From a virus, in the IMG/VR virus record IMGVR_UViG_3300021960_000129, positions 1 to 47,356 of that record: a stretch of DNA of 47,356 nt, one strand, 5' to 3'. The notes under the pieces were generated by a model. It did not search any database and was not told the origin of the DNA. It saw nothing but the letters and a program-made list of their open reading frames with translations. Shown piece by piece: positions 3,782-45,190 of this stretch; position 1 is the first letter of the stretch, and every line of letters begins with the position of its first letter. The translations under genes were made by a program, and so were the position numbers.

Positions 3782-3799
3782 TGTAACATTTATGTTACG
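3782..3799. promoter_or_regulatory. 18-bp palindromic operator-like site, copy A
   Basis: TGTAACATTTATGTTACG: two 8-bp arms around a TT centre, 7 of 8 positions matched. It overlaps the last codons of the 49-aa gene and lies 46 bp from the -35 box of the promoter at 3707-3735. It is one of five strong copies in the window. Confidence 0.8.
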
Positions 3800-3939
3800 G
3801 TTCTAAATATTACCTTTGTGGGATAGTAAGCATCAACATGATCACGATATTCAATTGCATCGTGTACATCATAAAACTCTTGTGATACTTTATGACTCTT
3901 AAACCACGCAGTTACCCTATATTTTTTTAGTTTTAACAT
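3790..3939 (-). CDS. Hypothetical 49-aa protein
   Basis: Frame from ATG 3939 to TAA 3790 (MLKLKKYRVTAWFKSHKVSQ...), overlapping the upstream gene by 23 bases. The last codons contain palindrome copy A, so coding and regulatory sequence share bases. The composition is plausible for a real protein; family not recognised. Confidence 0.6.
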   Translation of the reverse strand: MLKLKKYRVTAWFKSHKVSQEFYDVHDAIEYRDHVDAYYPTKVIFRTVT

Positions 3940-4189
3940 TACCAGCATTGTCTGTAAAAGTGAATTGGAATAAGCCCTCTGGTAGCCTCATTGCCTTAAT
4001 CATCTGATAATACATCTCACAACTCATAACAACCAAATCGTGTTTATCAGTGTGGTCATTGTATTGCCTGATATAAACCTCATTGTCGTCTATGAAGATT
4101 TGAATGTCTTCATACATACCAAGGTCATCCATAACGGTTGTTACGGTTTCATCAAATTCCATCTCGTTTGTTATCATTTGCTTTTCCAA
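3917..4189 (-). CDS. Hypothetical acidic protein
   Basis: 90 aa, acidic N-terminal half (EMEFDETVTTVMDDLGMYED) followed by alternating beta-like segments. It overlaps both neighbours (38 and 23 bases). Family not recognised; it is an early-type small gene in the transcript from the promoter at 4560-4588. Confidence 0.6.
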   Translation of the reverse strand: MEKQMITNEMEFDETVTTVMDDLGMYEDIQIFIDDNEVYIRQYNDHTDKHDLVVMSCEMYYQMIKAMRLPEGLFQFTFTDNAGNVKTKKI

Positions 4190-4397
4190 TCAGATTTTCT
4201 CTTACGTCAACAATTTTATCGGATTCGACAAGGCTAATAATGGTATTGGTCAACTCTAGTTCTCGGTTCAACCAATACATCTTATCTTGTATTTCTTCTA
4301 GCTGTTTTTGGTAATATTCCAACTCCTTTTCTTTACGAACCCTGGAGTCTATAAAGTCACTGAGTAGAATAAGCTTTTTTGTTATTCCATCTTCCAT
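4152..4397 (-). CDS. Hypothetical coiled-coil protein
   Basis: 81 aa with a clear heptad region at residues 20-55 (RKEKELEYYQKQLEEIQDKM). It starts in a TAATG overlap with the 45-aa gene and overlaps the next gene by 38 bases. Likely oligomeric; function unknown. Confidence 0.6.
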   Translation of the reverse strand: MEDGITKKLILLSDFIDSRVRKEKELEYYQKQLEEIQDKMYWLNRELELTNTIISLVESDKIVDVRENLIGKANDNKRDGI

Positions 4398-4534
4398 TAG
4401 ATAAAGTCATCACCATATTTCTGTACATAGTATAAGTGCACCAATGGTTCTCCATTTTCTGTTAGGCGGCGGCGTAGTTCCTCTACAGAGATACCGTGCC
4501 ACTTAGCTGCGTCTGTCATTAACTTATCTACCAT
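4397..4534 (-). CDS. Hypothetical 45-aa protein
   Basis: Frame from ATG 4534 to TAA 4397, MVDKLMTDAAKWHGISVEEL..., with AAGGAG upstream and the promoter 4560-4588 directly before it, making it the first gene of that transcript. The K-W-H-G-I-S-V-E-E-L-R-R-R-L segment looks like a helix-turn-helix-like helix pair, but the protein is too short to call. Confidence 0.65.
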   Translation of the reverse strand: MVDKLMTDAAKWHGISVEELRRRLTENGEPLVHLYYVQKYGDDFI

Positions 4535-4559
4535 ATTGAATCTCCTTATTTATGTAATT

Positions 4560-4588
4560 ATTATAACACAAAAACTTATATATGTAAA
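4560..4588 (-). promoter_or_regulatory. Sigma70-type early promoter
   Basis: TTTACA, 17 bp, TATAAT on the minus strand, with GAGTG before the -35 box. No palindrome is nearby. It drives the small genes from 4534 to 3790. Confidence 0.85.
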
Positions 4589-4616
4589 CACTCAAGAGAA
4601 GACTTTTACACCATAC

Positions 4617-5807
4617 TTAGCTTGCCAACGTCGAGCATAGCTTATCCAACCTTGGTAATAATTTTTTCCAATATTCATCATCAGCACCGACAGGAATTAT
4701 AAATCTTATACCATCTATCTTATCAGAACGTACTGGATGAAATATACCACAATCTAGTATTTCTTTATAATCCTTTGGCTCATCAAAGTATATATGATTC
4801 AGTAATCCTTTAGAATTTGTCTTGCTTGGGAGCAACTCTGCAACCCTACGCATCTTTTCATCTATCTTATAGAATAGGTATCTTGCTTCCACTATTTTTT
4901 TGTATTCAAGAGCTGCTGCTACTCCACCCATAAATGGGTAGTGGCTGTTGCCGAATAAGAGCTTTGTCCTTACCCTATCCCAAATAAATTCTTTTGAGAA
5001 TGTCATGGCAAGAGGTGCATATCCACCAGTGAGAGCTTTACCTAAAATATTAATATCAGATTGTTGACCGTATTGTGCTGTATGAGTCGAATGCCAAGAA
5101 CCGAGTTTACCACAACCAGAACTTATATCATCTGTGATCAGAATAACATGGTAATTGTTACATAGTCTGCGTATATTAATCCAACAAAATTCAGATAGTG
5201 TTATGACTCCAGCATGTATTAATACAGGCTCTATAATAAAGCACCCTACACCACCAGATTTAAATTCTCGCTCTAACCGAAATAGAAGCTTCTTTTCTTC
5301 TTCAGTATCCATATTCTTTTCAATGGGTTTTAATACTTTGGTTCTAGACATTCTACCAAGAGGCAAATTCAAATCACTCATTGATCTTGCCAAATATGTG
5401 TTACCGTGATATGATGGAGACAGAGAAACGATTGTAGGCTTTACTTGATTTAAAGATTTCCAGTATTCATCGGATATGAGTATTGCTTGATCTACTGCAT
5501 CAGATCCAGATACTGCCCATGTAAATCCTGCCCAATCACTTCCGCACAAAGCTTCAGATAATTCTATTTGCATATCACATGTCAGACCACGTGTAGAAGG
5601 TGTTCGTGTCCAGTTTAAAACTCCATTGTGTACAGCGAGTGCCATACGAGTATTCAGTGCTCCCATAGGAGCTGTATTACCCCAAACTAAATCCATATAT
5701 TCTTTACCACTTTCAGTAGTAAAGGTCCACTTGTGCATTTTCTTTATTCGTGTATGAGCATCGTGTTTCTCAATAGAGTTACCCCAAAAGGTCATTTCTT
5801 TTCTCAT
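4617..5807 (-). CDS. Class III PLP-dependent aminotransferase (glutamate-1-semialdehyde aminomutase-like)
   Basis: 396 aa, normal length for fold-type I class III enzymes. SGSDAVDQAI (100-109) is the phosphate-binding loop, SYHGNTY (132-138) the aromatic stacking region, ITDDISSG (224-231) contains the Asp that holds the pyridine nitrogen, and K257 in NILGKALTGGYAPLA is the Schiff-base lysine. The family transfers amino groups to aldehydes, including keto-sugar-like substrates, or moves them within a molecule. It is the last gene of the glycan block and touches the radical SAM gene (shared base 5807), so the two probably act in one pathway. The substrate is unknown. Confidence 0.9.
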   Translation of the reverse strand: MRKEMTFWGNSIEKHDAHTRIKKMHKWTFTTESGKEYMDLVWGNTAPMGALNTRMALAVHNGVLNWTRTPSTRGLTCDMQIELSEALCGSDWAGFTWAVSGSDAVDQAILISDEYWKSLNQVKPTIVSLSPSYHGNTYLARSMSDLNLPLGRMSRTKVLKPIEKNMDTEEEKKLLFRLEREFKSGGVGCFIIEPVLIHAGVITLSEFCWINIRRLCNNYHVILITDDISSGCGKLGSWHSTHTAQYGQQSDINILGKALTGGYAPLAMTFSKEFIWDRVRTKLLFGNSHYPFMGGVAAALEYKKIVEARYLFYKIDEKMRRVAELLPSKTNSKGLLNHIYFDEPKDYKEILDCGIFHPVRSDKIDGIRFIIPVGADDEYWKKLLPRLDKLCSTLAS

Positions 5808-7750
5808 TATAACTCCAGTGACTGTGGATAGTGAGACATACCCTCACGTTTATTTGCTTGGTTCTTTATTTCAAATAGGTCTCTAAACTTTTCAAAAGAG
5901 AAAAATGAATTAATATCCTCTGGAAACTGTGTACCTATTCTAAACTTGTTTATCTTAACATTTCTTCGTTTAGGTTCTATGTCCATCAGATTGCTTCGTT
6001 CTCCAGGGATCAGATCATTCAGCATTTTAAATATCTCAGAAAAATTGTATTGCATTTCTAACTGCCTTGGCTTTCTCCACGAAACAATGGTCATATATTG
6101 TGCTTTCATCATATCTTTTAATTTATCATCAGACATAGGGGTGAGTTGCTGCATCAAAGCCGTTACATCATCTAACACACCTTCAAGTAATTCTATTGCT
6201 CGGTATTTTACATACATATCTGCTTGAAGCTTATTTCCACGAAACATTATTGCCTTTGAATCTACTTCACCTGCAACATATTTGTGCATATGATCTTTAA
6301 CTTCATTATAGATTTTATTACATGTAGGCATCTGAGATAGCTTATCATAAAACTCACCATAACTTACTGTATAATAATGCCGAGCAAAGTGAGACACAAA
6401 TTTGCTTATATTGAGTATATGAAACCCAATCAGAAACTGAGTGAATGCTTGCATATCAGCATAGTCATCCTTAGAATATGTATTGGTTTCAGTGACAAAC
6501 TCGGAGTGATATAGTGTTTTAAATGTAGAGTTCTCGTTCCTCAGCCGTGTTGTCTTGATGCCATATTTCTGAATATACTCTGGATCTGCGGCTGGAGCAT
6601 TTGGCAATAGCATGAAGTCATGGACACGTAGATCATGATGAAACCCAATCTCTAGCATATAGCCAAGATTGTGCTTCCACTTCTCCACTGTATCGCCTGG
6701 GTTTCCGAGAATGGATACTCCAACAAGAGGGATATTGTTCTTGAACGCTTCGTTCAGTTCCTCTTGTAGCTTGTCTTGTCTGATATTAGAACGGTCGATG
6801 GCATCGAGTACAGCATCATCTGTATGCTGATAGGATATTTGAGCACCTGTACACATGTTAGCCTCATAAAGTAATTTATGGGCTTGGTTGCTAACTTCTT
6901 TCTTATTCTTTGCTGCCGAGAACTGGATCTCTTGTGGATAGCCAGTGCTGTTCTTAAGTTCTACCGCTCTCTCAATGTACTTGATATCATCCTTGAATAT
7001 ACCAAAGTTGGCATCGGCATTGAACACATAGGTAACACCTAGTTTTGAAAATGCCTCAAGGTCCTCCATAACGGTATCTTCGGTCAGTCTACGGATCTTA
7101 TCTGATGTGGCAGAACCCCAATCGCAGAACGCACATTTATATGGGCAACCTCTGTTGGTTTCCCACATTGTAAATAGTGAACCATGTCGGTCTTTAATAG
7201 TTTGTGCAATATGAGTATACTCATCCCAATATAACTTATATGGAGATTGAAACTTTTTTAAAATAAGTCTTTTCGCTGATACTTTATCTACAGGGTACCT
7301 AGGATCTACAAGTAAATCATGTTCAACGGTTAGACCATTTACCTTTTGGTAAAGAATTGTAGCGAGAAGATCCTCGCCTTCCCAAGGAGTGATCCAATCA
7401 CAGACTTCGTATGCTTTTGTATTTTGGTGTGGTCTGTATTGCGCCTGTGGTCCACCAGCAAGAATAAGGATATTAGGGTTTGCCGCTCTTGCTCTCTTGG
7501 CAATTTCCAGTTGTCTTTCTTCGTTCCAGACATAGAACGATAATAATAGTACATCAACATTTTTTAGGTTATGTTCTTCCAAAAGACGATTAACATCAAA
7601 CCACCCTTCTATAAGAGGCGGTAACCATTTTACTTGTGTTAAATCGTGATTACTTTGATAGTCACAATACTCTCTAAACCTACCCCAAGCATAGGGTAAC
7701 CAAACCTGTCTTTCTTCGGCAGCAGGGTTGGAGTATAGAACTGTTATCAT
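5807..7750 (-). CDS. Radical SAM enzyme with B12-binding-type N-terminal domain
   Basis: 647 aa. Residues about 1-140 form a Rossmann-like B12-binding-type domain (VDVLLLSFYVWN, ILILAGGPQ, PWEGEDLLA) without the classical DxHxxG histidine, as is usual in class B radical SAM enzymes. C202, C206 and C209 in ETNRGCPYKCAFCDWG are the 4Fe-4S cysteines. The C-terminal about 200 residues are unassigned. Relatives methylate unactivated carbons or do ring and chain chemistry in antibiotic, hopanoid and tetrapyrrole pathways. Placement between a PLP aminotransferase and sugar-transfer genes suggests it alters a sugar or lipid, which is inference. Confidence 0.9.
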   Translation of the reverse strand: MITVLYSNPAAEERQVWLPYAWGRFREYCDYQSNHDLTQVKWLPPLIEGWFDVNRLLEEHNLKNVDVLLLSFYVWNEERQLEIAKRARAANPNILILAGGPQAQYRPHQNTKAYEVCDWITPWEGEDLLATILYQKVNGLTVEHDLLVDPRYPVDKVSAKRLILKKFQSPYKLYWDEYTHIAQTIKDRHGSLFTMWETNRGCPYKCAFCDWGSATSDKIRRLTEDTVMEDLEAFSKLGVTYVFNADANFGIFKDDIKYIERAVELKNSTGYPQEIQFSAAKNKKEVSNQAHKLLYEANMCTGAQISYQHTDDAVLDAIDRSNIRQDKLQEELNEAFKNNIPLVGVSILGNPGDTVEKWKHNLGYMLEIGFHHDLRVHDFMLLPNAPAADPEYIQKYGIKTTRLRNENSTFKTLYHSEFVTETNTYSKDDYADMQAFTQFLIGFHILNISKFVSHFARHYYTVSYGEFYDKLSQMPTCNKIYNEVKDHMHKYVAGEVDSKAIMFRGNKLQADMYVKYRAIELLEGVLDDVTALMQQLTPMSDDKLKDMMKAQYMTIVSWRKPRQLEMQYNFSEIFKMLNDLIPGERSNLMDIEPKRRNVKINKFRIGTQFPEDINSFFSFEKFRDLFEIKNQANKREGMSHYPQSLEL

Positions 7751-8346
7751 TTTGTATTGATTTCTACATTCTCTGGCAAAGGGATTCTAGCTGTAGTGTG
7801 ATTGTGGTGCAGAACAAACTGTTTGTCTGGAAACTCTTCAAATAACTTTACCCAAATAGGACGCCAATTATTAGCGAGGCGCACTTGGTTCATATCAGAT
7901 CTATCGCTGTTCAAGTAGAAATCTGAACAACTCTTGAGATTCATATCAAAGATGGAATCAAATCCATACAAGTGAATAGTATCACCATTGATTTTTTCTG
8001 GAAGGCAAGCATACCTTACAGCCATGTGACCGCAGTTCCAATCAGTGAGTGTTGGAGCATACGATGGCTTATCTGTAAAGTAATCTCGGATCTGAGAAGC
8101 CCAACGGATGCGAAGATCTGGATTCATCTCTAGGTATTTGTGTGGTCTGAAACCTAAGATCCAATCACCAGGAATTACAATCTCTTGCATATGCATAGCA
8201 TTCATAATCTTAAAATCTACAAGGCACGTTGCATATACACCTTCCACATTAAACGGTGGCAGGTTACACGTAATCTTAATACCTTTTTGATGTTTATATC
8301 TTACGGCTTGATCACCGTTACCTATGACATGTACTGTTCTAGCCAT
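7747..8346 (-). CDS. Hypothetical protein, nucleotide-sugar or DUF115-like
   Basis: 199 aa. It begins with a strand and glycine loop (VHVIGNGDQAVRYK) followed by ITCNLPPFNVEGVYAT and later IHLYGFDSIFD, the pattern seen in DUF115/GT29-like proteins, which act on activated sugars or alcohols. No catalytic residues can be assigned. It overlaps the radical SAM gene by 4 bases and the GT8-like gene by 8. Confidence 0.55.
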   Translation of the reverse strand: MARTVHVIGNGDQAVRYKHQKGIKITCNLPPFNVEGVYATCLVDFKIMNAMHMQEIVIPGDWILGFRPHKYLEMNPDLRIRWASQIRDYFTDKPSYAPTLTDWNCGHMAVRYACLPEKINGDTIHLYGFDSIFDMNLKSCSDFYLNSDRSDMNQVRLANNWRPIWVKLFEEFPDKQFVLHHNHTTARIPLPENVEINTK

Positions 8347-8980
8347 TAATCAACCTTTCAATGTGCAGTTTACCTTTTTTGCCTGTATGATGTAAAATGA
8401 GTTTTTGTTTCGGCTCCGTTTTATCAGATTTCTGTAATCGGAGCACGTTGTATTTATTAGGCAAATCTTCAATAAGAGACATCTTCATTATATCGTTGTT
8501 GCCAATCATATGATGCAAAACCTCTTGGTCTCCAGACTGTGCTGGTACAGCGCATTGGTGTTCCCATTCTCTGAGTATCTGTGGAGTTCCTTCAAACCCT
8601 ACCACACCAGAGTTGTGCCATTTAATTCCACTACGCATAGACCAAGGTTTATCCTCAACCATAAGAAGTTTTTTCGGAACAATGCAATCCCATATGCCAG
8701 ATATGTCTCCCAATATCTCACAGTCTGAGTCGATCCAACAAGTCATCTTTGACTGTTTACTCTGATGTAACATGGCTGCTGGTTTCTTGAACCAACCCCT
8801 AGCCACTATCTCCAGTTTTATAGCGGCGTACTGGCCAGCCATATCAGGCGTCATACCAAAATCATATACAAGAATCTTCTCTCCTTTGTTATGCTTTTTA
8901 AAGTTGTACATAAACCATGGTAGCATCCACTGAGTGTTCTGGTCAACTCCTGTTATAAATGTGCGCTCAGATAATGTCAT
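8339..8980 (-). CDS. GT8-like glycosyltransferase
   Basis: 213 aa from ATG 8980; AAGGAAACCT precedes this ATG, and a longer frame to 9058 would overlap the neighbour by 92 bases. TCWIDSDCEIL contains a DxD metal/nucleotide-sugar motif, and the second half (WHNSGVVGFEG, SGDQEVLHHM) has the conserved N.G and D-Q of GT-A enzymes that follow a sugar donor. Donor and acceptor are unknown. Part of the glycan block. Confidence 0.7.
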   Translation of the reverse strand: MTLSERTFITGVDQNTQWMLPWFMYNFKKHNKGEKILVYDFGMTPDMAGQYAAIKLEIVARGWFKKPAAMLHQSKQSKMTCWIDSDCEILGDISGIWDCIVPKKLLMVEDKPWSMRSGIKWHNSGVVGFEGTPQILREWEHQCAVPAQSGDQEVLHHMIGNNDIMKMSLIEDLPNKYNVLRLQKSDKTEPKQKLILHHTGKKGKLHIERLING

Positions 8981-9617
8981 AGGTTTCCTTATTGTATTTG
9001 TGCTTTGCCAAACACCCTTTCTCAACTTGTATTGTTGTAAAACTATCTCTTGCCTCAACGGGCCATGGATAATACTCTTGTAGGAATCTAAAATTATCTA
9101 GGTGAAGGTATACATCTGTGGGTGCTGCTTGGCTCTTTGCTTTCTTGATTAGAACCTCGGCTGCTTGCCATGATACTTGATAGGCATGTGCTCCACCAAA
9201 ATATTTCTTATGCTGTAGTTCTTGTACGCCCAAGTATCTAGGGATATTAAACTTACCGTATGATGGCTTGCCAAATGTAATGCACCCTTGGTAACCATTG
9301 ACTTCTGGGATTGTATCTACTATCACGGCATCGTGCTCAAAGATCAGTACATCAATCTTATCCTCTACAGCCTTCTTCCACAAGGAATAGTGTGATAAAA
9401 ATGCCGCCATACAATTATCTGTACGAGAATACACCTCATCAAATGCTTGTGGGTTGATGCCATACTCTTTCATAATCTTTTCTGGATTATCTTTTGGTAT
9501 AGTTGCTTTCCATTTTTCTATTTCAAGTCCATGCTTTTTGCCAGACTTGATACACCGTTCAGCCACTTGTACTGATCTCTCATTGTTAAGAATAGTAATA
9601 ACGTATGCTTTTCTCAT
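8967..9617 (-). CDS. GT25-type glycosyltransferase (LPS biosynthesis family)
   Basis: 216 aa. It starts with AYVITILNNERS and has the family's CMAAFLSHYSLWKKA helix followed by VLIFEHDAVI, where HD replaces the ExD-type motif, and AYQVSWQAAEVLI later. GT25 enzymes add galactose or glucose to LPS cores. It overlaps the sulfotransferase upstream by 4 bases. This is one of three GT25-type genes within 5 kb; they are divergent in sequence, so not a recent duplication. Confidence 0.85.
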   Translation of the reverse strand: MRKAYVITILNNERSVQVAERCIKSGKKHGLEIEKWKATIPKDNPEKIMKEYGINPQAFDEVYSRTDNCMAAFLSHYSLWKKAVEDKIDVLIFEHDAVIVDTIPEVNGYQGCITFGKPSYGKFNIPRYLGVQELQHKKYFGGAHAYQVSWQAAEVLIKKAKSQAAPTDVYLHLDNFRFLQEYYPWPVEARDSFTTIQVEKGCLAKHKYNKETYDII

Positions 9618-10976: not shown

Positions 10977-11025
10977 TCTATATTTTACTCTCTTTATTAC
11001 TTTTTCAAGTGTTGGTTTATCTACC

Positions 11026-18202: not shown

Positions 18203-18448
18203 TTATTTACCTGCAAACAAGGGTTGCATTTTGTTGAATACAACGTTGAAGGCGTTAACCTCATAGATCCAAGTGTCATAGAAGTCATCATCTTCATCTT
18301 CATTGAAACAATGCTCGTTCCACATGTTGTCCATATACTCAAGACCATCAAGCAGACTCTGGCTTTTTACGCCAAGACGTGAGATAATTGATTTTGCCTC
18401 CTCAAAAGTCATTTCGGACATTAGGTTGTGTGCTGGGATTCTAAACAT
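18203..18448 (-). CDS. Hypothetical acidic protein
   Basis: 81 aa with an acidic run NEDEDDDFYDTW around residue 50. It is the first gene after the minus-strand promoter 18474-18502. Family not recognised. Confidence 0.65.
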   Translation of the reverse strand: MFRIPAHNLMSEMTFEEAKSIISRLGVKSQSLLDGLEYMDNMWNEHCFNEDEDDDFYDTWIYEVNAFNVVFNKMQPLFAGK

Positions 18449-18473: not shown

Positions 18474-18502
18474 AATATACCACAAACAGAGATGTATGTA
18501 AA
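18474..18502 (-). promoter_or_regulatory. Sigma70-type early promoter (left arm of a divergent pair)
   Basis: TTTACA, 17 bp, TATATT on the minus strand, preceded by TAGGGG. Palindrome copy B lies 46 bp upstream of the -35 box and also serves the plus-strand promoter 18580-18608. Confidence 0.88.
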
Positions 18503-18548: not shown

Positions 18549-18566
18549 TGTAACATTTATGATACA
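18549..18566. promoter_or_regulatory. 18-bp palindromic operator-like site, copy B
   Basis: TGTAACATTTATGATACA, identical to copy C at 45173. It lies 46 bp from the -35 box on its left and 13 bp from the plus-strand -35 box on its right. Confidence 0.85.
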
Positions 18567-18579
18567 TACATTTTAGGGG

Positions 18580-18608
18580 TTTACAAAACCAGAAAAGTGT
18601 GGTATAAT
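18580..18608 (+). promoter_or_regulatory. Sigma70-type promoter, plus strand
   Basis: TAGGGG then TTTACA, 17 bp and TATAAT. It is one of only two plus-strand promoters seen, driving the SDR-like gene. Confidence 0.9.
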
Positions 18609-18637: not shown

Positions 18638-19078
18638 ATGGAATACTTTATTAATGGTACAAGAAGAGGTCTTGGAAAGTATTGGATTAATCGGTACCCT
18701 AATGAGTGCGTTGCTACTTTAGATGATTGTGAAGTATTTATTAACAATAAACATGATGGGTATCTACAAGTACATCGTCTATATCAGGCTGCAGAACAAG
18801 GTAAGAGAATCATTAACATTGGTTCTGCTGGATCTGATTGGACTAAGGGGTATAAAGACAACTTCCGATATGGTCTAGAAAAGAAACAATTGAGAGATGC
18901 CAATGATGCTCTATTCTGGCAAAACGTGAACACAACCATTATCAACTTTGGCTATTTCGATACAGAGAGATCTGCACATAAGGATGTTCCAAAGATGAGT
19001 CTTAATTATGTCCACGATGTAATTATATGGGTACTAGATCAGCCCCATCGCATTAAAGAAATTACTGTTACTCCCTAA
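18638..19078 (+). CDS. Miniature short-chain dehydrogenase/reductase-like protein
   Basis: 146 aa on the plus strand, against about 250 for a normal SDR. NGTRRGLGK corresponds to TGxxxGxG (cofactor loop), FINNKHDG to NNAG, INIGSAGSDW to the catalytic-Ser strand, YGLEK to YxxxK and INFGYFDTE to the PG..T turn. Only about 30 residues separate the glycine loop from NN, so the second and third strands of the Rossmann fold appear deleted. It has its own promoter and overlaps the minus-strand gene tail-to-tail by 4 bases. NAD(P) binding and activity are uncertain. Confidence 0.8.
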   Translation: MEYFINGTRRGLGKYWINRYPNECVATLDDCEVFINNKHDGYLQVHRLYQAAEQGKRIINIGSAGSDWTKGYKDNFRYGLEKKQLRDANDALFWQNVNTTIINFGYFDTERSAHKDVPKMSLNYVHDVIIWVLDQPHRIKEITVTP

Positions 19079-24165: not shown

Positions 24166-24194
24166 ATTATATATTACTTTAGGTTTCTTGTAAA
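24166..24194 (-). promoter_or_regulatory. Sigma70-type early promoter for nrdJ, proximal
   Basis: TAGGGG TTTACA, 17 bp, TATAAT on the minus strand, about 100 bases before the nrdJ start. Confidence 0.87.
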
Positions 24195-24242: not shown

Positions 24243-24260
24243 TGTCGCATATATGTTACG
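24243..24260. promoter_or_regulatory. Degenerate copy F of the 18-bp palindrome
   Basis: TGTCGCATATATGTTACG keeps the CAT/ATG core and GT..AC positions but only 5 of 8 arm pairs. It lies 48 bp from the proximal -35 box, off the 2-plus-11n spacing of the others. It may be decayed or unrelated. Confidence 0.4.
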
Positions 24261-36122: not shown

Positions 36123-36527
36123 TTATGCGTACTCCTTGAAGGTTACGATTGATTTGAGTTTCTTGACTAGGTTACGACCATAGTCAGTAAACAAGATGCC
36201 TTTATTCCACACCCAATGTTCTACACACTGGTCATTGTAGAACTTTTCGTTCTGGGTCATCCACCGCAGAGCGGTCTCACGATCACCAGCACCAAGAGCA
36301 ATATGCTGGTTGATATCGTACTTAAAGTCCTTGACGCATTCGTCTGCTATCCGACGTTCCTGAAGTTCGCTATACTCGAACTCTTCGATCAGAGAATCCC
36401 AGATGCTCTGCTTTTCTTCGTCAGTGGAAGCATTCCACTGGTTCCACCAGTATTCTCCCGGACGGGAACCACGAGCATCTTTGTGAAGGTCGGAAATGGT
36501 GTTCTCATCGAAAGTGTAAACAGTCAT
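36123..36527 (-). CDS. Hypothetical acidic protein
   Basis: 134 aa, Trp- and Glu-rich (GEYWWNQWNASTDEEKQSIW, TALRWMTQNEKFYNDQ). It is the only gene downstream of promoter 36551-36579 before the next promoter. Family not recognised. Confidence 0.7.
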   Translation of the reverse strand: MTVYTFDENTISDLHKDARGSRPGEYWWNQWNASTDEEKQSIWDSLIEEFEYSELQERRIADECVKDFKYDINQHIALGAGDRETALRWMTQNEKFYNDQCVEHWVWNKGILFTDYGRNLVKKLKSIVTFKEYA

Positions 36528-36550: not shown

Positions 36551-36579
36551 ACTATACCACATGTAGGCATAGATGTAAA
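36551..36579 (-). promoter_or_regulatory. Sigma70-type early promoter (left arm of a divergent pair)
   Basis: AGGTG TTTACA, 17 bp, TATAGT on the minus strand. Palindrome copy D is 35 bp upstream of the -35 box and 2 bp from the plus-strand -35 box at 36635. Confidence 0.85.
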
Positions 36580-36614: not shown

Positions 36615-36632
36615 TGTAACATTTATGTAACA
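36615..36632. promoter_or_regulatory. 18-bp palindromic operator-like site, copy D
   Basis: TGTAACATTTATGTAACA, shared by a minus-strand promoter (35 bp away) and a plus-strand promoter (2 bp away). Confidence 0.82.
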
Positions 36633-36634: not shown

Positions 36635-36663
36635 TTTACACTTAGCCAAATACGTGTTATAAT
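36635..36663 (+). promoter_or_regulatory. Sigma70-type promoter, plus strand
   Basis: TTTACA, 17 bp, TATAAT, then a short leader with GAGGGAAG before the mini-gene. Confidence 0.88.
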
Positions 36664-36691: not shown

Positions 36692-36778
36692 ATGCCTTTA
36701 TGCTTTGGACATGACCCCTGCGACGATTGCATTCACTGGCTAAAGTGGATCAACGAACAGTGGCGTAGAAATCCTTAG
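36692..36778 (+). CDS. 28-aa plus-strand mini-protein with three cysteines
   Basis: MPLCFGHDPCDDCIHWLKWI and onward, ending WRRNP. Cys 4, 10 and 13 plus His 7 and His 15 could bind one metal ion. An in-frame ATG at 36677 would leave only about 7 bases of leader, whereas the ATG at 36692 has AGGGAAG before it, so it is preferred. It has a strong dedicated promoter and overlaps the minus-strand gene tail-to-tail by 4 bases, as at 19075-19078. Confidence 0.65.
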   Translation: MPLCFGHDPCDDCIHWLKWINEQWRRNP

Positions 36779-37397: not shown

Positions 37398-37400
37398 CAT

Positions 37401-38255: not shown

Positions 38256-38266
38256 ATTACCTCACT

Positions 38267-38743: not shown

Positions 38744-39002
38744 CGATTCTGTCCTCCAGTTCATCTATTTTTCTGGTTATTTTTGGATATTTTTTCCGCC
38801 AAGCATCAGGTGGTTCTTGTAGCCAAGTCCACCCCCACCTGTTAACAAGATGATCTAGTAACTGGTCAAACTTTGAGTAACCCCAAATCCCAGCCCTTGT
38901 TTCTTTAAACCATGCGAGAAATGCCGCACCGAGTAAAGCACCAGCGATAGCCGTCCAAATCCATAGCGTATCGCCAAACATTCTTTCTAACATTTCCATC
39001 AT
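38724..39002 (-). CDS. Hypothetical membrane protein
   Basis: 92 aa. One transmembrane helix (WIWTAIAGALLGAAFLAWF) is followed by a Trp-rich region and a C-terminal charged heptad (ITRKIDELEDRIDELDKR). It overlaps the nuclease gene by 4 bases. The start could be the second Met. Family not recognised. Confidence 0.6.
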   Translation of the reverse strand: MMEMLERMFGDTLWIWTAIAGALLGAAFLAWFKETRAGIWGYSKFDQLLDHLVNRWGWTWLQEPPDAWRKKYPKITRKIDELEDRIDELDKR

Positions 39003-39466: not shown

Positions 39467-40183
39467 TTATTTCTCCTCCAGATATTTGACATAATTTTGC
39501 ATGCCATGATCTCTGGCACCATCAAATGGTTGTTTCTTTTTCCAAGCTGTTACACGACCTCTCCAACCATCCTTAAATCTTTGCCACTTTGTCATCTTAC
39601 GGATATTGCCGTAAAAGTTAATGTAGCGCAGATCACCGTGATGTTTGTAGCCCATAATTGCAAATGGGACTTTCGTAACAATGTCGTTATTGTTTACATG
39701 CCTATGATGTTCGCAAGTAATATTGCGCACGAACTTACGTGTGCCAACTCTTGGAGATCCATATGTGAAAAGAGCAAGAGGTTTTAGCCTACTTGCACAT
39801 ACTGTAGCCATAGCACCGCCAAGAGAATGACCGCAGATAAAGAGTTTTTTCTTTTTACCTTTATCTTTCACTAACTCATTAACTTGAGGCCAAACCTTCT
39901 CTAGTTCGTTTTGGAATCCGTTATGGACCCAACCACCAACTTGAGCACGGTCAGGGAAAGCATTTAGATCAGCAGTAATATCGGAAAATTCGGATGGTTC
40001 GGTACCACGGAAACAGATAACCATTTCGCCTTGGTTCCACACTACGTGCACTTGAGCGCCGTGCACATTATAAAATCTATGGTATGGATATCCCATCTCT
40101 TTGAAATCCATCCAAGCTTCCTTGCTCTTGTAAGCAAGTTGAGCCATAACAGCCATCTTGTGGCTCTTGTCTATGTAAGGCAT
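39467..40183 (-). CDS. Class 3 lipase-like alpha/beta hydrolase
   Basis: 238 aa. ICFRGTEPSEFSD gives the oxyanion loop, ICGHSLGGAMA the nucleophile S120, NNNDIVTKVP the acid D167 and GYKHHGDL the His (181 or 182). This is a complete class 3 lipase triad. It would hydrolyse acyl glycerols or phospholipids. No signal peptide is visible, so it may act on the inner membrane or be released at lysis. A 7-bp stem can cover its Shine-Dalgarno. Confidence 0.87.
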   Translation of the reverse strand: MPYIDKSHKMAVMAQLAYKSKEAWMDFKEMGYPYHRFYNVHGAQVHVVWNQGEMVICFRGTEPSEFSDITADLNAFPDRAQVGGWVHNGFQNELEKVWPQVNELVKDKGKKKKLFICGHSLGGAMATVCASRLKPLALFTYGSPRVGTRKFVRNITCEHHRHVNNNDIVTKVPFAIMGYKHHGDLRYINFYGNIRKMTKWQRFKDGWRGRVTAWKKKQPFDGARDHGMQNYVKYLEEK

Positions 40184-40188
40184 AGTAA

Positions 40189-40236
40189 ACCCCTTGTAAT
40201 GTGTTAAACATAGTGTAAATCACACCCAAAAGGGGT
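40189..40236 (-). promoter_or_regulatory. Possible RBS-sequestering stem before the lipase gene
   Basis: The lipase Shine-Dalgarno AAGGGGT (40189-40195) is perfectly complementary to ACCCCTT at 40230-40236, 34 bases upstream, with a further GTGT/ACAC pairing in the loop. This could control lipase translation. Confidence 0.4.
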
Positions 40237-40248
40237 AGTAGTAATAAA

Positions 40249-40650
40249 TCAGTTCTCGAACGAAAGTTCTTGTAGTTTCTTTAATTCAGCCTCTAGTCTC
40301 ATAAGTTCTAGCTGCTTTTCTCTTATCGCTAACTCGAATAATCTATTGCAGTCGATTCTCTTTTTGACCCTTCGACCCAAGGGTATTGTAATTCTAGCAA
40401 ACACACCAATGTCAGGCTTTTGGTCCATAGTTGATGTGCCAATAGGCGGATTGCCATCAATGATTCCTGTCACCCCAAACTCTAGGTTCGTTGCCGAGCC
40501 TATAGCGTTAGAACAATCTAAATCACCATCTCTAAACTTATCTGATTGGTAGTTGCTGGTGCTATTTGGAATTTGTAAGTTCAAAGAACTACTATCCGCA
40601 TATACTTTACCAGCAAACATAATCAGAAGGAACACATATAGTATTCTCAT
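40249..40650 (-). CDS. Secreted protein
   Basis: 133 aa. MRILYVFLLIMFAGKVYA is a signal peptide. The mature part has two Cys, a FARITIPLGRR strand and a C-terminal helix (EKQLELMRLEAELKKL) suited to oligomerisation. It is one of five consecutive secreted proteins. Family not recognised. Confidence 0.7.
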   Translation of the reverse strand: MRILYVFLLIMFAGKVYADSSSLNLQIPNSTSNYQSDKFRDGDLDCSNAIGSATNLEFGVTGIIDGNPPIGTSTMDQKPDIGVFARITIPLGRRVKKRIDCNRLFELAIREKQLELMRLEAELKKLQELSFEN

Positions 40651-40658
40651 ATATCACC

Positions 40659-41063
40659 TCACTTAATCTTCGAACAAACCCTCGAAGATATGACCGTATT
40701 AGCATTATTTTCAGCATTAACAAGTCTGTTTAATTTTGAGACAGTACAAACATATACTGCCCTTTTCACGTCCTTTTTCCGTATATACACAGAAAAATTC
40801 TTTCTTGACAGATGCGGCAGACTTATAATTCTGTCTGTAGTAGCAAATACCATAGGTTCCATATCTTTATCCAATACTTGGATTTCATAGAACCGCACAT
40901 CTTCCCTTCTATTATATGTCTCCAGTTTTACCACATATACATTTGGTATATGCGATTCTTTTATCTCTGGATATGTCGGAGTCAGTTCATGTGCTGCCGC
41001 ATAATAGATGCTACAGCTAGTGAAAACTAAACCCAAGACAATGCATAATATGAACGTCCTCAT
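40659..41063 (-). CDS. Secreted protein, possibly chaperone-like
   Basis: 134 aa from ATG 41063, in overlap with the upstream stop; MRTFILCIVLGLVFTSCS is a signal peptide, with a cysteine that could be a lipobox (FTSC). The mature part is beta-rich (FYEIQVLDKDMEPMVFATTD, NFSVYIRKKDVKRAVYVC), reminiscent of fimbrial chaperone strands; no family is certain. Confidence 0.6.
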   Translation of the reverse strand: MRTFILCIVLGLVFTSCSIYYAAAHELTPTYPEIKESHIPNVYVVKLETYNRREDVRFYEIQVLDKDMEPMVFATTDRIISLPHLSRKNFSVYIRKKDVKRAVYVCTVSKLNRLVNAENNANTVISSRVCSKIK

Positions 41064-41563
41064 TATTTCGGAATACATTCACTGGTTACAACAGCGGTAT
41101 ATACACCACCTGGAAATGACTTAGTAGAGCCATAAAGGGCAGTAGATGTTACCTTGAACCAAGTGCTTCCAGACAGAACTAGGTCAAATTCTGTGTGATT
41201 ATTATATTCTACTTTGTTTGTTTCATACGAAGACATATTTGCATCAGATACTGCACTCACTTCTACTTCACCTGTCCATACTACACTATCTGTAAGTGTA
41301 GGGCTTGATGAGAATGAATCGGGCCAAGTAATCTTGACCTTATATGAATCTGCTTGAATAACGTCTACACGAATGATTGGTAGTACACCACTATCAGCGG
41401 CAACAGTTGTTAGTTTGTCTGCTGTAGGGTTTCCGTAGACACCAGAAGTTTCTGTGACAATCGAACAACGTGACTGAACATTCCCTTGAATGTTTGTGTT
41501 ATTTGCGTATGCTGCACTTGTTCCCATAATAACCAAAGCAGTAGTTGCTAAGAATTTTTTCAT
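41063..41563 (-). CDS. Secreted pilin-like protein
   Basis: 166 aa. MKKFLATTALVIMGTSAAYA is a cleavable signal peptide. The mature chain is beta-rich with few charges; the final FPGGVYTAVVTSEC and an early CSIV give a two-cysteine pattern like DUF4402/pilin domains. A late promoter at 41594-41601 lies 31 bases before the start. A role in a surface fibre or in blocking receptors is speculative. Confidence 0.65.
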   Translation of the reverse strand: MKKFLATTALVIMGTSAAYANNTNIQGNVQSRCSIVTETSGVYGNPTADKLTTVAADSGVLPIIRVDVIQADSYKVKITWPDSFSSSPTLTDSVVWTGEVEVSAVSDANMSSYETNKVEYNNHTEFDLVLSGSTWFKVTSTALYGSTKSFPGGVYTAVVTSECIPK

Positions 41564-41592
41564 GGTATTTCCTTCTTTAGTAAGTTTATAGT

Positions 41593-42462
41593 TTATTTAT
41601 ATTGAGAGCGTACTATTTCTCTATGTTTTGTATCACTAGCTAAACTTCTCAATGCTCTTTTGTTGTCAACAATTACATTATCTTTGAGCGTTATGTTTTC
41701 TTTATATTCGCCACCTTGTATGTCTTGCGCATAATATGAGTTAAGTTTTGGTACTTGACTGAGTGCTAACATCATAGCATTCTGTTCTGCTGCATTAGCA
41801 ATCTTCTCTGTTGCGCCGCCAACCGCAAGTTGTTCTTGTAAGGTTTCTTCTTCTTTTTCTTCTTCCTCTGCAATCTCTTCCTTATTGCCATCGGCTTCTT
41901 CTTGTTCGGCTTTTCGATCTAACTGCATCTGAACATATTCATCCAAATACGGATCTTTTACATCAGGGTCATCAAGCAAACCATTGTCTAACAAATACTG
42001 CAAGAGAGCCGATTCATAGTTCGGACACCTTGGATCATTCAATGGATCATCACATGTATCATATACATAATCATAATGGATTATAGATTCTGTTATCGTA
42101 CCATCACCTTCAACAGTAATAGAACCATTCCCTAATAGTTCTCCTGCTATACTTACTGGATCATAACCAATCTTTGTGGAACCTGGCAGTTGGTTCCAGT
42201 TATCAATGTGCAAATATGAGCAACCATTTCCATTCGGATTCTCATTACAAATTCTAACCGTAGCATCTGTATTTGGATCTTTCTCAATGGTATAACGGTG
42301 ATACACCCCATTTACCTTTAAACCCAAGGCTTGAGGTATAACATTTGTCATAGCCCAGTTTAGCTCTGCCGTAGTGCCTCTTCCGAATATTACTTCAGAG
42401 AGCGAGTAGGAGGGCCAAAAGAGCACCAATGCCAAGACTAGCTTTTGCAGTATCCGAGTCAT
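41593..42462 (-). CDS. Secreted acidic protein
   Basis: 289 aa. MTRILQKLVLALVLFWPSYSLS is a signal peptide. After a beta-rich domain with Cys pairs (RICNENPNGNGCS, DTCDDPLNDPRCP) it contains a Glu-rich linker (KEEIAEEEEKEEETLQEQL) and a helical end. The first 68 bases overlap the gene upstream out of frame. Function unknown. Confidence 0.65.
   Translation of the reverse strand: MTRILQKLVLALVLFWPSYSLSEVIFGRGTTAELNWAMTNVIPQALGLKVNGVYHRYTIEKDPNTDATVRICNENPNGNGCSYLHIDNWNQLPGSTKIGYDPVSIAGELLGNGSITVEGDGTITESIIHYDYVYDTCDDPLNDPRCPNYESALLQYLLDNGLLDDPDVKDPYLDEYVQMQLDRKAEQEEADGNKEEIAEEEEKEEETLQEQLAVGGATEKIANAAEQNAMMLALSQVPKLNSYYAQDIQGGEYKENITLKDNVIVDNKRALRSLASDTKHREIVRSQYK
41594..41601 (-). promoter_or_regulatory. 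T4-type late promoter box
   Basis: TATAAATA on the minus strand, 31 bases before the pilin-like gene start at 41563, overlapping the stop codon of the gene upstream. Confidence 0.7.
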
Positions 42463-42976
42463 CCTTATCCCAATTTTTAAAAATGTTTAAATCTTTATTT
42501 GTATTCTCTTCTTGTTTCTTTGGATCATTTTGCCAAGCATCTTTAGCCATCTGACCAATCATTCCATCGTAAGGGCATGGAGTCCCAGCATCCATCATTG
42601 CATCAAAGATCCTAGTATCTTGGCACATCACAGAAACTGCGGCAACCTTCATACCCATATCATATAATGTCTTTGCATTCTTGAGTCTCTCACAGTTAAA
42701 ATCTCGAACAGTCTTACCAGCACTGATGCCGAGGATCTGCGTCTGTACCGCACCTGATACACCAACGGTACAACTATCACTGTTACTTGTGTTAATCGAA
42801 GGGCTAATAGCTGATGGAGGGGGAGACTTGACAGTGGTATTACTGTCTATTGTTTGTTTACCATTTGTAGTAGACTCGGTACAGATATATCCTTCTGGAC
42901 AAGTAATCGCATCTTCTTGTGCATAACTAACGGTACCCATAATAATAAAAAATAATGTTAGTAAAATTCTGTACAT
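42395..42976 (-). CDS. Secreted protein with C-terminal hydrophobic segment
   Basis: 193 aa from ATG 42976 (GGGA 7 bases upstream, whereas an ATG at 42988 has none). MYRILLTLFFIIMGTVSYA is a signal peptide; CPEGYIC and further cysteines (DSCTVGV, FNCERL, VMCQD) suggest disulfides. The last residues ASLGIGALLALLLAL form a membrane segment. First gene after the late promoter 43013-43020. Family not recognised. Confidence 0.7.
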   Translation of the reverse strand: MYRILLTLFFIIMGTVSYAQEDAITCPEGYICTESTTNGKQTIDSNTTVKSPPPSAISPSINTSNSDSCTVGVSGAVQTQILGISAGKTVRDFNCERLKNAKTLYDMGMKVAAVSVMCQDTRIFDAMMDAGTPCPYDGMIGQMAKDAWQNDPKKQEENTNKDLNIFKNWDKDDSDTAKASLGIGALLALLLAL

Positions 42977-43012
42977 ATTATATCCCATTGCGTAAATATT
43001 TCATTCAAACTC

Positions 43013-43020
43013 TATTTATA
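43013..43020 (-). promoter_or_regulatory. T4-type late promoter box
   Basis: TATAAATA on the minus strand, 36 bases before the start at 42976, joined directly to the U-tract of the terminator 43019-43049. Confidence 0.75.
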
Positions 43021-43049
43021 AAAAAAGGAACCGCTAGGGTTCCTTTTTC
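43019..43049 (-). terminator. Intrinsic terminator
   Basis: AAAAAGGAACC, short loop, GGTTCCTTTTTTT on the minus strand: a perfect GC-containing stem plus a seven-T tract, after the beta-barrel gene. Also readable from the plus strand. Confidence 0.92.
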
Positions 43050-43072
43050 TGTTTTAAAATGTTTTATTTGGG

Positions 43073-43417
43073 TCAGAACTGAAATCTTACACCCATTTTA
43101 AGGTCTTGGTAGTCAAGGTCTTTGTCAGCGGATACTTCGCCAAACAATTCTAGGTTATCAGACAAGCCGTATGTGGCTTCTACTTCAACACCGACCATAT
43201 CAAAGTCCATGTCACCGTCTACGGTAGTCAAGAGTTTCGGGGCAACACCAATGTTTCCCATATCGATTGTGGGACCAACTTCCATAGCGAGGCTTTCGTT
43301 TTCAACGCTGTATTCCACTTCACCAGCAGCGCCGATGTGGAACATAGAAGTTTTTTCTTCTGCGAGTGCGCCAGTGGCAGCAAGAGCAAAAGCAGTTGCG
43401 AGAATAGTAGTTTTCAT
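43073..43417 (-). CDS. Small outer-membrane beta-barrel-like protein
   Basis: 114 aa. MKTTILATAFALAATGALA is a signal peptide. The mature chain is a run of alternating strands (VEYSVENESLAMEVG, MVGVEVEATYGLSDNLELFG) and ends in MGVRFQF, whose terminal Phe is the usual beta-signal for BAM insertion. About 95 residues suffice for a short barrel or part of one. A phage-made outer-membrane protein could alter surface receptors; this is inference. Confidence 0.65.
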   Translation of the reverse strand: MKTTILATAFALAATGALAEEKTSMFHIGAAGEVEYSVENESLAMEVGPTIDMGNIGVAPKLLTTVDGDMDFDMVGVEVEATYGLSDNLELFGEVSADKDLDYQDLKMGVRFQF

Positions 43418-43474
43418 TGTAGTTTGTTTCCTATTTTTAAGATTTTCATGATAAAGAGGCCCGTTCTGTTGCTA

Positions 43475-43774
43475 GGTGGAACCCATACCCCCTGTGGTTA
43501 TGCTGCTAGAGCAAACTCAGATGGTGCAAAGTTATCGTTTGCATTTAGTAGTTTTGGCTGAATAACGTAGGCCAACACGGTAAACTCCACTTCATTTTCA
43601 CACCTGTCGATCCTATTTCGACCCCATCAAAGATACACTAGCGAGAACAAAGGGAGGATCCTAAGACTGTCCCAGAGACTTATTACTCTCAAAAGACGCT
43701 AATGTAGCTATGGTGGAGTCGCTGGGTACCGCCCCCAGGTCCAGAATGTGTCCACGTTGCTTCAACGCTTACAA
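43475..43774 (-). ncRNA. ssrA: Circularly permuted (two-piece) tmRNA
   Basis: As transcribed leftwards, the acceptor piece comes first and ends CGACTCC-A-CCA (43721-43711), after a T arm CTGGG/CCCAG whose 7-base loop GGCGGTA lacks the usual TTC. A spacer follows, then the 5' piece starting GGGGTCG (43625-43619) and GGATCGACAGG. GGGGTCG pairs fully with CGACTCC, with G3-U70, the alanine identity pair. The tag frame at 43542-43498 encodes 14 residues then TAA. TCCAC (43480-43476) pairs with GTGGA (43755-43751). The outer ends are estimated. It rescues stalled ribosomes and tags products. Confidence 0.9.
43498..43542 (-). other. tmRNA tag reading frame
   Basis: GCA AAC GAT AAC ... GCA GCA TAA encodes ANDNFAPSEFALAA. 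The AND-N start and -LAA end are those of proteolysis tags recognised by ClpXP. Confidence 0.9.
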
Positions 43775-43780
43775 GAGTAT

Positions 43781-43809
43781 ATATTAACATACTCTACTGA
43801 TAATGTAAA
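43781..43809 (-). promoter_or_regulatory. Promoter of the tmRNA gene
   Basis: TTTACA, 17 bp, TAATAT on the minus strand; the -10 is weaker than in other promoters. Palindrome copy E lies 24 bp upstream. Confidence 0.7.
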
Positions 43810-43833
43810 CACCCTTACAGTTTATATTTTAGG

Positions 43834-43851
43834 TGTTACATTTATGATACA
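43834..43851. promoter_or_regulatory. 18-bp palindromic operator-like site, copy E
   Basis: TGTTACATTTATGATACA, 24 bp from the -35 box of the tmRNA promoter and 19 bp from the stop of the DUF3310-like gene. Confidence 0.78.
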
Positions 43852-43870
43852 CTATGATCTAAATGTTTAA

Positions 43871-44146
43871 TCATAATTCATTATCGTGTATATACAATTG
43901 TATTAACGCATAGTGAAGAACCTTTTGTAGATCCTTACGAGCATCTGCACGAGTTCCTTTGTTTCCATATCGGTTAGAATACTTGTCAATATTGCCCATA
44001 CAGAAACCAGTTCCATGACCACGTTCAATAATCACTTCAGTGGACTGAAACTTGTTCTTTGAATAGTGACCAGTATATGTTGAGTCAATATAGTCTTGAA
44101 ACTCATCAATCAAGTCACCTTCATTAAATTTATAATCAATAGCCAT
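43871..44146 (-). CDS. DUF3310-like protein
   Basis: 91 aa. TEVIIERGHGTGFCMGNIDKYSNRYGNKG, split as TEVIIERGHGTGFCM and GNIDKYSNRYGNKG, then DARKDLQKVLHYAL match the DUF3310 plan (GN..KY..R...K, then DL.K). The family is widespread in phages, once called a nucleotide kinase-like domain, with no proven function. Shares a base with the SleB-like gene. Confidence 0.7.
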   Translation of the reverse strand: MAIDYKFNEGDLIDEFQDYIDSTYTGHYSKNKFQSTEVIIERGHGTGFCMGNIDKYSNRYGNKGTRADARKDLQKVLHYALIQLYIHDNEL

Positions 44147-44661
44147 TAATGTATATCCTTATTCCAATAAAATATGTGACGACCAATCTTCACTACTTTA
44201 CGATCCATTTTCTTTGCCCATGCTGGACTTACATAATCAGCATGATAGAATGTAGAACCTTCGGTAATATCTTCTATCTGCCCAGTATACACCATTTGAG
44301 CAAGTTTGTAAATATCGTTGTATTGTTTTCCAACTAATGGAATATCACTCTTTCCATCGTGAGTCCACGAGAACTGTTTATTCTGCCAAACAACTTCACA
44401 TACAGTATTTGGAAACCACTCAGATTTTACACGATTCATAGTCACATTGGCTACTGCGATTTGTCCCGCAACAGGTTCAATCAAACTTTCGAAATAGATG
44501 TTGTCTGCAAGACACCGGATCTGTTTAGGTGGTAACTGCACAACTTCTTTTTGGTTCATATAGTTATAGATGTAGCCATCTTTACTACACGCACTTACTA
44601 TAGTGGCAATAAATGTTACATTTACTGCTAGTGCCAGTGTTGCCATTTTTGTATTTTTCAA
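44146..44661 (-). CDS. SleB-like cell-wall hydrolase, lipoprotein
   Basis: 171 aa if started at TTG 44661, preceded by GAGGAAG, giving a signal peptide KNTKMATLALAVNVTFIAT and a lipobox IVSAC (Cys 25). NIYFESLIEPVAGQIAVANV is the Hydrolase_2/SleB core with the catalytic Glu, followed by NRVKSEWFPNTVCEVV and FYHADYVSPAWA. The enzyme cuts peptidoglycan. A start at 44709 would add a charged stretch and overlap more of the next gene. Confidence 0.82.
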   Translation of the reverse strand: MKNTKMATLALAVNVTFIATIVSACSKDGYIYNYMNQKEVVQLPPKQIRCLADNIYFESLIEPVAGQIAVANVTMNRVKSEWFPNTVCEVVWQNKQFSWTHDGKSDIPLVGKQYNDIYKLAQMVYTGQIEDITEGSTFYHADYVSPAWAKKMDRKVVKIGRHIFYWNKDIH

Positions 44662-44662
44662 T

Positions 44663-44851
44663 TTAAACTTCCTCGTTTTCAGACATTTCTGAATCAATTC
44701 GATCCACATTCTTTTGTAGATCCTCGATGATCATATCTAGTTCTACTAGCATATGTTCTTTAGAATAGTTAAATGTGTTAGAACGACGAACAAAGCTGTT
44801 AAGAGCTTTCTGCATTGTAGATGCATCTTGGATATCTTTTAGGATAATCAT
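44663..44851 (-). CDS. Hypothetical helical protein
   Basis: 62 aa; helical and acidic at the C-terminus (IIEDLQKNVDRIDSEMSENE). It overlaps the upstream gene by 4 bases (ATGA) and its stop is one base from the TTG start of the SleB-like gene. Function unknown. Confidence 0.6.
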   Translation of the reverse strand: MIILKDIQDASTMQKALNSFVRRSNTFNYSKEHMLVELDMIIEDLQKNVDRIDSEMSENEEV

Positions 44852-45081
44852 ACTTCATCTCCATTCACTTTACGGCAACGTACCAAACATTTGGCCAGAT
44901 CATCTAAAAGAGAATCAAGGGTCGTTATCTGGTCATAGTGATCGCATTCATCTTTGTCGAGCGCATCAAACAAATGTGCATTTTTTACAAGTGATTTGAG
45001 GTCATATTCCATACGGTTTAGAACCTCTGATTTCATTTGGCGGTTTGTTAGTTGCAATTGCGCCCATATCTTCTGTTCCAT
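44848..45081 (-). CDS. Hypothetical early protein
   Basis: 77 aa with three Cys, helical (MEQKIWAQLQLTNRQMKSEV, SLLDDLAKCLVRC). First gene after promoter 45109-45137, with GAGAGGTACAAG before the ATG. Family not recognised. Confidence 0.65.
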   Translation of the reverse strand: MEQKIWAQLQLTNRQMKSEVLNRMEYDLKSLVKNAHLFDALDKDECDHYDQITTLDSLLDDLAKCLVRCRKVNGDEV

Positions 45082-45108
45082 CTTGTACCTCTCTTGATTT
45101 GATAATTT

Positions 45109-45137
45109 AATATACCATATGCAGATACAGATGTAAA
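45109..45137 (-). promoter_or_regulatory. Sigma70-type early promoter
   Basis: TTAGGGG TTTACA, 17 bp, TATATT on the minus strand. Drives the genes from 45081 to 43871. Palindrome copy C is 35 bp upstream. Confidence 0.88.
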
Positions 45138-45172
45138 CCCCTAATGTGCACTTTTTAAAACTTTTTTATAAG

Positions 45173-45190
45173 TGTAACATTTATGATACA
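45173..45190. promoter_or_regulatory. 18-bp palindromic operator-like site, copy C
   Basis: TGTAACATTTATGATACA, identical to copy B, immediately after the stop codon of the oxygenase gene (45191). Confidence 0.85.

Follow-up and report, generated by a model that had tools for sequence, protein, structure and literature searches.

Helically phased heptamer arrays upstream of T4-like phage promoters suggest a tie to a transcription activator, perhaps the host's own

The 47,356-bp viral record IMGVR_UViG_3300021960_000129 (38% G+C), analysed in full and called the window here, carries seven promoters with a TTTACA −35 box, an N17 spacer and a TATAAT-like −10 box, each served by a pair of heptamers lying upstream of its −35 box. 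Five copies of this two-heptamer site, which read TGTNACATTTATGNNACR, account for all seven promoters (Table 1). The window is assigned to a T4-like phage on its PHROG and Pfam matches (ribonucleotide reductase, cytidyltransferase, PhoH, SegE, DUF6433 and DUF7207). By one protein, the closest named record is Phage C48C1 (Kyanoviridae), with 63% identity over 406 amino acids, followed by Stenotrophomonas DLP_6, Methylophilales phage Melnitz and Pelagibacter phage HTVC008M. A PHROG scan of five open reading frames (ORFs) served by the sites gave a single match, to a family of unknown function.

Table 1. Heptamer sites, the promoters they adjoin and the transcripts served in the window (gap, bp between site and −35 box)
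Feature	Position	Strand	Remarks
Two-heptamer site TGTAACA-N4-TGTTACG	3782..3799	.	gap 46 to minus-strand −35 box
Promoter TTTACA-N17-TATATT	3707..3735	-	leads into ORF 3400-3675 (-)
Two-heptamer site TGTAACA-N4-TGATACA	18549..18566	.	common to divergent pair; gaps 46 (left), 13 (right)
Promoter TTTACA-N17-TATATT	18474..18502	-	leads into ORF 18203-18448 (-)
Promoter TTTACA-N17-TATAAT	18580..18608	+	leads into ORF 18638-19078 (+)
Perfect two-heptamer site TGTAACA-N4-TGTAACA	36615..36632	.	common to divergent pair; gaps 35 (left), 2 (right)
Promoter TTTACA-N17-TATAGT	36551..36579	-	leads into ORF 36123-36527 (-)
Promoter TTTACA-N17-TATAAT	36635..36663	+	leads into short ORF 36692-36778 (+), ends read by eye
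Two-heptamer site TGTTACA-N4-TGATACA	43834..43851	.	gap 24; serves tmRNA promoter
tmRNA gene promoter TTTACA-N17-TAATAT	43781..43809	-	
Permuted two-piece tmRNA gene (RF04321)	43498..43772	-	transcript served by site 43834
Two-heptamer site TGTAACA-N4-TGATACA	45173..45190	.	gap 35
Promoter TTTACA-N17-TATATT	45109..45137	-	leads into ORF 44848-45081 (-)
Degenerate site TGTCGCA-N4-TGTTACG	24243..24260	.	gap 48
Promoter TTTACA-N17-TATAAT	24166..24194	-	adjoins degenerate site 24243

A first-pass annotation of the window had described the site as an 18-bp palindrome whose distance to the −35 box is always 2 plus a multiple of 11 bp. Its five copies, the seven gaps, the two divergent promoter pairs and a sixth, degenerate copy off the series were all exact when recounted. 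Individual heptamers in the window are TGTAACA, TGTTACA, TGATACA or TGTTACG, and when up to three mismatches are allowed to collect the five copies, none of 100 dinucleotide shuffles reaches five (shuffle mean 0.23). Other promoters of the same TTTACA-N17-TATAAT-like form are free of the site, e.g. those at 4588, 16613, 20675, 24340, 36097 and 37397. For the window alone, the probability that the gaps coincide on one lattice is ~2e-6 when the seven gaps are taken as independent and any modulus from 9 to 13 is accepted. It rises to ~4e-4 if the promoters at 3735, 18502 and 45137, which have an A-tract spacer in common and may be copies of one another, are counted as such.

The element is better read as an array of TGTNACA heptamers (mostly TGTWACA) repeated every 11 bp, with two to four copies per promoter. 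In loci fetched by the motif, TGTWACA pairs spaced by 11, 22 and 33 bp number 90, 25 and 5, while six control heptamers gave at most 4 pairs at any distance from 7 to 40 bp; as the motif itself had helped to select these loci, the counts at 22 and 33 bp are the fairer measure. Among 42 promoter clusters with perfect heptamers, 34 have two, six have three and two have four; records G002 and G023, for instance, contain perfect runs of three TGTTACA or TGTAACA, 11 bp apart, upstream of promoters. These longer runs make the 18-bp palindrome the two-copy case of an array, and its apparent symmetry comes from the heptamer, which is itself palindromic. The element of the first-pass annotation therefore stands, but its unit is a 7-mer in an array of up to four and not a single palindrome. 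The centre base of the heptamer is A at a frequency of 0.34 and T at 0.48, and its palindromic form leaves the orientation of a half-site unreadable.

The longer runs also bear on the idea that the 18-mer is a single palindrome recognised by another host regulator, for instance a CRP/FNR-like or NarL-like dimer. The window 18-mer is indeed nearly symmetric, helical phasing is a hallmark of class I activators, and no CRP domain was found in 19 phage records. However, runs of three and four heptamers misfit a single 18-bp dimer site, and the CRP consensus TGTGA-N6-TCACA is spaced differently and does not match the window copies. We regard such a dimer as unlikely.

Relatives were gathered by pattern scans of 2.9 million viral contigs and by two protein searches (best 80 loci of each), giving at least several hundred loci. 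In a first tabulation a promoter lay beside 102 of at least 446 unique oriented sites, with gap peaks at 2, 13, 24-27, 35-36 and 46 bp. Near-copies were then merged into clusters at under 65 or 75% identity. With one mismatch allowed and merging at <65% spacer identity, R was 0.73 at a period of 10.5 bp for 89 clusters (p ~2e-21). Two overlapping sites from a single array may both be present in this set; the test was therefore repeated with one value per promoter. For perfect heptamer pairs, 37 of 42 clusters then fell within 1 bp of 2+11n (one of the 37 at a gap of 79 bp, far beyond the others), with R = 0.86, a best period of 10.6 bp and a Rayleigh p of ~5e-14. Allowing one mismatch gave 49 of 67 clusters within 1 bp (R = 0.73, p ~4e-16). 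The signal persisted when the window clade was removed (n = 39, p ~2e-13 for perfect pairs; n = 58, p ~8e-14 with one mismatch), and in each of these four cases the observed value exceeded anything seen in 20,000 uniform simulations in which the period could vary freely from 9 to 12.5 bp.

The proposal that sites keep one helix face towards RNA polymerase at several distances thus extends to the relatives, where the gaps are not spread evenly modulo 11. What does not hold is a strict modulus of 11, which is too tight: the peaks (2, 13, 24-27, 35-37 and 46-47 bp) are better fitted by a helical period of 10.3-10.6 bp, only 23 of 79 non-window clusters lie exactly on 2+11n although 56 are within 1 bp, and off-lattice gaps such as 16, 19, 20, 32, 53 and 64 bp occur. 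The shared A-tract spacer noted above would favour explaining the phasing as a by-product of duplicating one ancestral promoter cassette. Such copying is insufficient as a cause, because the phase persists once near-copies are merged and also without the window clade, and we consider this explanation scarcely credible.

Three further observations concern sequences at or near promoters. Some relatives (L008, L010, L036, L046, L060, L089, L452, L453 and L456) have a TGTACA −35 box, and their heptamers often have G or C at the centre (TGTGACA, TGTCACA); the box and the heptamer centre seem to vary together. Another recurring site, TGTTGCATAAATGTCACA, lies upstream of TTGACA promoters in L019, L062, L115, L321 and L406 at gaps of 26-57 bp; as a set these sites are off the lattice and may belong to another regulator. 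In L289, L299, L311 and L452, a terminator-like inverted repeat followed by a T run is seen by eye between the array and the −35 box.

The sites are closely tied to promoters. In 17 sequences, comprising whole contigs or most of them, all 28 perfect two-heptamer sites have a promoter no more than 60 bp away (some sites being counted repeatedly through near-identical contigs), compared with 0.1-3% of random positions on one strand; an equal frequency away from promoters, which would have spoken against the first-pass proposal, is thus not seen. No perfect site occurs in C48C1, G010 and G012, ~450 kb together. A reversed control pattern had no match in two scanned record sets; elsewhere it matched at two places in G007 and at one each in HTVC008M and phiM12.

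Position relative to the core promoter also bears on the choice between activation and repression, the two options that the first-pass annotation had offered. Of the site-promoter pairs, 163 carry the site upstream of their −35 box and only 11 carry it across the core promoter, six of the 11 being doubtful because the supposed −10 box, TAACAT, is made of heptamer letters. This distribution argues against a repressor, and an activator fits better. Palindromes near phage promoters are often operators, and one window copy is 2 bp from its −35 box, as an operator might be. Most sites, though, stand helix-phased at a distance of 24-47 bp from the −35 box, and a single site so far upstream would be a poor steric repressor. 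We consider it very unlikely that the array is a repressor operator.

Comparison of the tmRNA (transfer-messenger RNA) promoter between the window and record G022 shows that the flanks have diverged while the site and the −35 region are kept. The arrays at the two promoters are reverse complements of each other in place, with a gap of 24 bp in one and 25 bp in the other, as if the array acted symmetrically. The divergent pair at 36615 is also kept in the relative L400, which has a short ORF resembling 36692-36778. The tmRNA itself matches the alphaproteobacterial model. Its gene region spans 43498-43812 (-) and its tag reads ANDNFAPSEFALAA; the 5′ starts given by ARAGORN (43805) and by the alpha_tmRNA model (43812) are both inside the promoter, and the RF04321 start (43772) is near that predicted from the −10 box. 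Elsewhere the window has a cluster of four tRNA genes (Thr, Leu, Met, Arg) at 1079-1406 (-) and a tRNA-Pro gene at 107-183.

Across relatives, some of which were placed by two G002 proteins (an Hsp20 and a nucleotidase-like protein), the site with at most one mismatch is found in 13 of 50 contigs (48 found by protein, two by motif), several of these sites being weak. On a tree of the DUF932 protein with 40 rows (13 with the array, 27 without), the array label changes six times, and at least five changes are forced by well-supported branches. Over bootstraps there were 5-7 changes, against 11.1 for shuffled labels, and one of 500 shuffles was as low; the distribution is patchy, not scattered at random. 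The tree contains positives of any length and negatives from contigs of at least ~25 kb, four of which (L214, L222, L245 and L274) were labelled from the stricter scan only; L245 has one site with one mismatch, without a promoter. It leaves out L223, where the gene is absent, six contigs whose sites are weak or doubtful (L155, L170, L173, L180, L184 and L193), and L199, which has a true phased pair.

Array-free sister phages keep similar promoters, in which TTTACA is preceded by a G run and, in many cases, an A-rich stretch lies upstream. The motif-free relative G010 (L435, L436 and L437) reuses a near-identical promoter core, TTTACAAATGAGTCGAAAAGGCTTATATT, at several places, and a TTCGAAAAAA-type stretch lies upstream of some of these cores. 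The array was absent from the five named phages scanned, C48C1, Melnitz, HTVC008M, phiM12 and DLP_6, so the host cannot be read from named relatives in this way. The matches listed for a blastn search with one array region were short and weak; they fell in unrelated phages, at ~75% identity along 62-72 bases and with a best E value of 0.01.

Domain searches were made for candidate regulators. The OmpR DNA-binding domain (PF00486), the CRP-type domain (PF13545) and RHH_1 (PF01402) were each found in none of 19 phage records, several of them fragments, and in 10, 14 and 10 of 14 control genomes, respectively; a phage-encoded regulator of any of these three types was set aside on this basis. Pfam scans covered 60 proteins of the window and a further 135 from G002, G003 and the contigs flanking the window. 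Among the 125 of 197 Pfam family lines listed, the transcription-related ones are a T4-type late coactivator, DsbA and WYL_2, beside RegA, which acts in translation; AraC_binding was matched in a protein set that also holds cupins (all 23 families of that set, E ≤0.001). WYL_2 was rejected as the array regulator, since it is present in 7 of the 14 motif-bearing records and in 7 of the 12 others and so does not track the array. A comparison of the motif-bearing groups A, B and C with three motif-free genomes gave no convincing protein family unique to the former, the groups being incomplete, small diverged proteins being liable to be missed, and most common matches looking antisense or spurious. 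The first-pass statement that no regulator gene is obvious in the window agrees with these searches.

The combined evidence suggests that the phage ties its array-served genes to a transcription activator, perhaps the bacterial host's own. We give an even chance to a specific form of this reading, in which a host-encoded response regulator of the OmpR/PhoB family activates the promoters from helix-phased sites. The proposed steps are as follows. Tandem 7-bp half-sites (TGTNACA), one helical turn apart, lie upstream of ordinary sigma-70-type phage promoters, and a winged-helix regulator, most like OmpR within its family, would sit on adjacent heptamers, two or more at a time. It would activate from upstream, probably by contacting the C-terminal domain of the RNA polymerase alpha subunit, whose flexible linker would tolerate several distances provided that the helix face is kept. 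The promoters would act early, and a subset of phage genes would thereby be linked to a host signal. If the spacer is 17 bp and transcription begins ~7 bp past the −10 box, two-heptamer sites at gaps of 2 to 46 bp are centred near −46 to −90. Class I activation via the alpha subunit keeps phase and not distance, and CRP and its relatives likewise act at several distances from one helix face, although from a different sequence and a single dimer site where arrays are found here. What the protein is and where it comes from, that it activates and that it contacts alpha are all inferred from DNA sequence.

The OmpR/PhoB assignment rests on the tandem half-sites about one helical turn apart and on a motif match. 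The Salmonella OmpR motif TGTWACAW is present in two or three copies per region in seven upstream regions (PMC3586657). It has the heptamer, the multiplicity and the upstream position of the array, as a match of sequence; it differs in serving host genes and not phage ones, and the available part of that paper states no 11-bp spacing rule. OmpR dimers bind head-to-tail or head-to-head, and OmpR/PhoB proteins bind tandem half-sites (PMC4117788), such as those of RstA, TACATNTNGTTACA (PMC4117788). For other members, PhoB GTCA(C/T) repeats are described as spaced by 6 bp (PMC8041468) and PmrA hexamers as separated by five bp (PMC3973317). Pho-box GTCA(C/T) half-sites are absent among the window heptamers; TGTCACA variants are present in some relatives.

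The nearest precedent, by analogy, is the binding of host PhoB to promoters of the T4-like cyanophage S-PM2d (PMC10976474). Both cases concern promoters of T4-like marine phages and an OmpR/PhoB-family regulator supplied by the host, which for the array is our inference. The S-PM2d Pho boxes have a PyTTAAPyPyT/A half-site at few genes, and their prediction is called unreliable in the source (PMC10976474); the array, in contrast, has a TGTNACA half-site, a strict 11-bp repeat and helix-phased distances. For the heptamer array in phages no published report was found, a weak negative as the subscription literature was mostly outside the search.

As to the origin of the factor, the evidence leans towards the host over the phage: a patchy array, with array-free sisters keeping similar promoters, is as expected if the array follows the host. 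Several points weigh against a host response regulator. The clustering of the label on the tree is also explained by inheritance with the phage. All listed loci with a TTTACA or TGTACA box carry T4-like homologues, which within this set confines the module to one virus supergroup. A strict promoter-plus-array pattern, able to catch 57 of the 91 viral pairs of site and promoter whose gaps it spans, found only two stretches in 84,980 bacterial and archaeal species (one in a Bacillota metagenome-assembled genome, one in Enterococcus); this exact arrangement is therefore rare at best among the hosts' own genes. The heptamer is palindromic, unlike most OmpR/PhoB half-sites, and half-sites of enteric OmpR are spaced by ~10 bp, not 11. 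Finally, the Salmonella study reports TGTWACAW as absent from the classical ompC and ompF sites (PMC3586657).

The restriction to T4-like loci and the near absence from bacterial genomes would instead suit a phage-encoded activator of an unrecognised family, for example a small dimer binding each 7-bp palindrome, for which a symmetric heptamer is apt. Such a protein would switch on delayed-early or middle genes in place of the T4 MotA system. In T4 middle promoters a MotA box replaces the −35 box. The array promoters resemble these in being, as we propose, an activator-dependent subset; unlike them, all seven in the window keep the TTTACA −35 box and have the site upstream of it. Melnitz is reported to have no identifiable middle promoters (PMC9004378), which also favours a phage factor. 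Against it stand the empty CRP and RHH_1 searches of 19 records, the Pfam matches to T4-type factors, AraC_binding and a WYL_2 that does not follow the array, and the lack of a convincing family unique to the incomplete groups A, B and C. We hold a phage-encoded activator to be the main rival, though less probable than a host regulator. Slightly more doubtful is the broader proposal that marine T4-like phages lacking the MotA box system carry an unrecognised activator of their own, acting on 11-bp arrays of palindromic TGTNACA at any helix turn from about −46 to −90 and defining a third promoter class of the T4 superfamily beside early and late.

Under either origin, marine T4-like phages would wire part of their gene expression, including the tmRNA gene, to an upstream activator, through a geometric rule of upstream activation strong enough to be read from the DNA. 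If the factor is a phage protein, it would be a new transcription switch in the T4 superfamily. If it is a host response regulator, infection would be tuned by host signalling, parallel to the use of host PhoB by cyanophages, and the array's sequence would hint at the host range. The distances found in nature also stand as evolution's own record of the helical rule for upstream activation.

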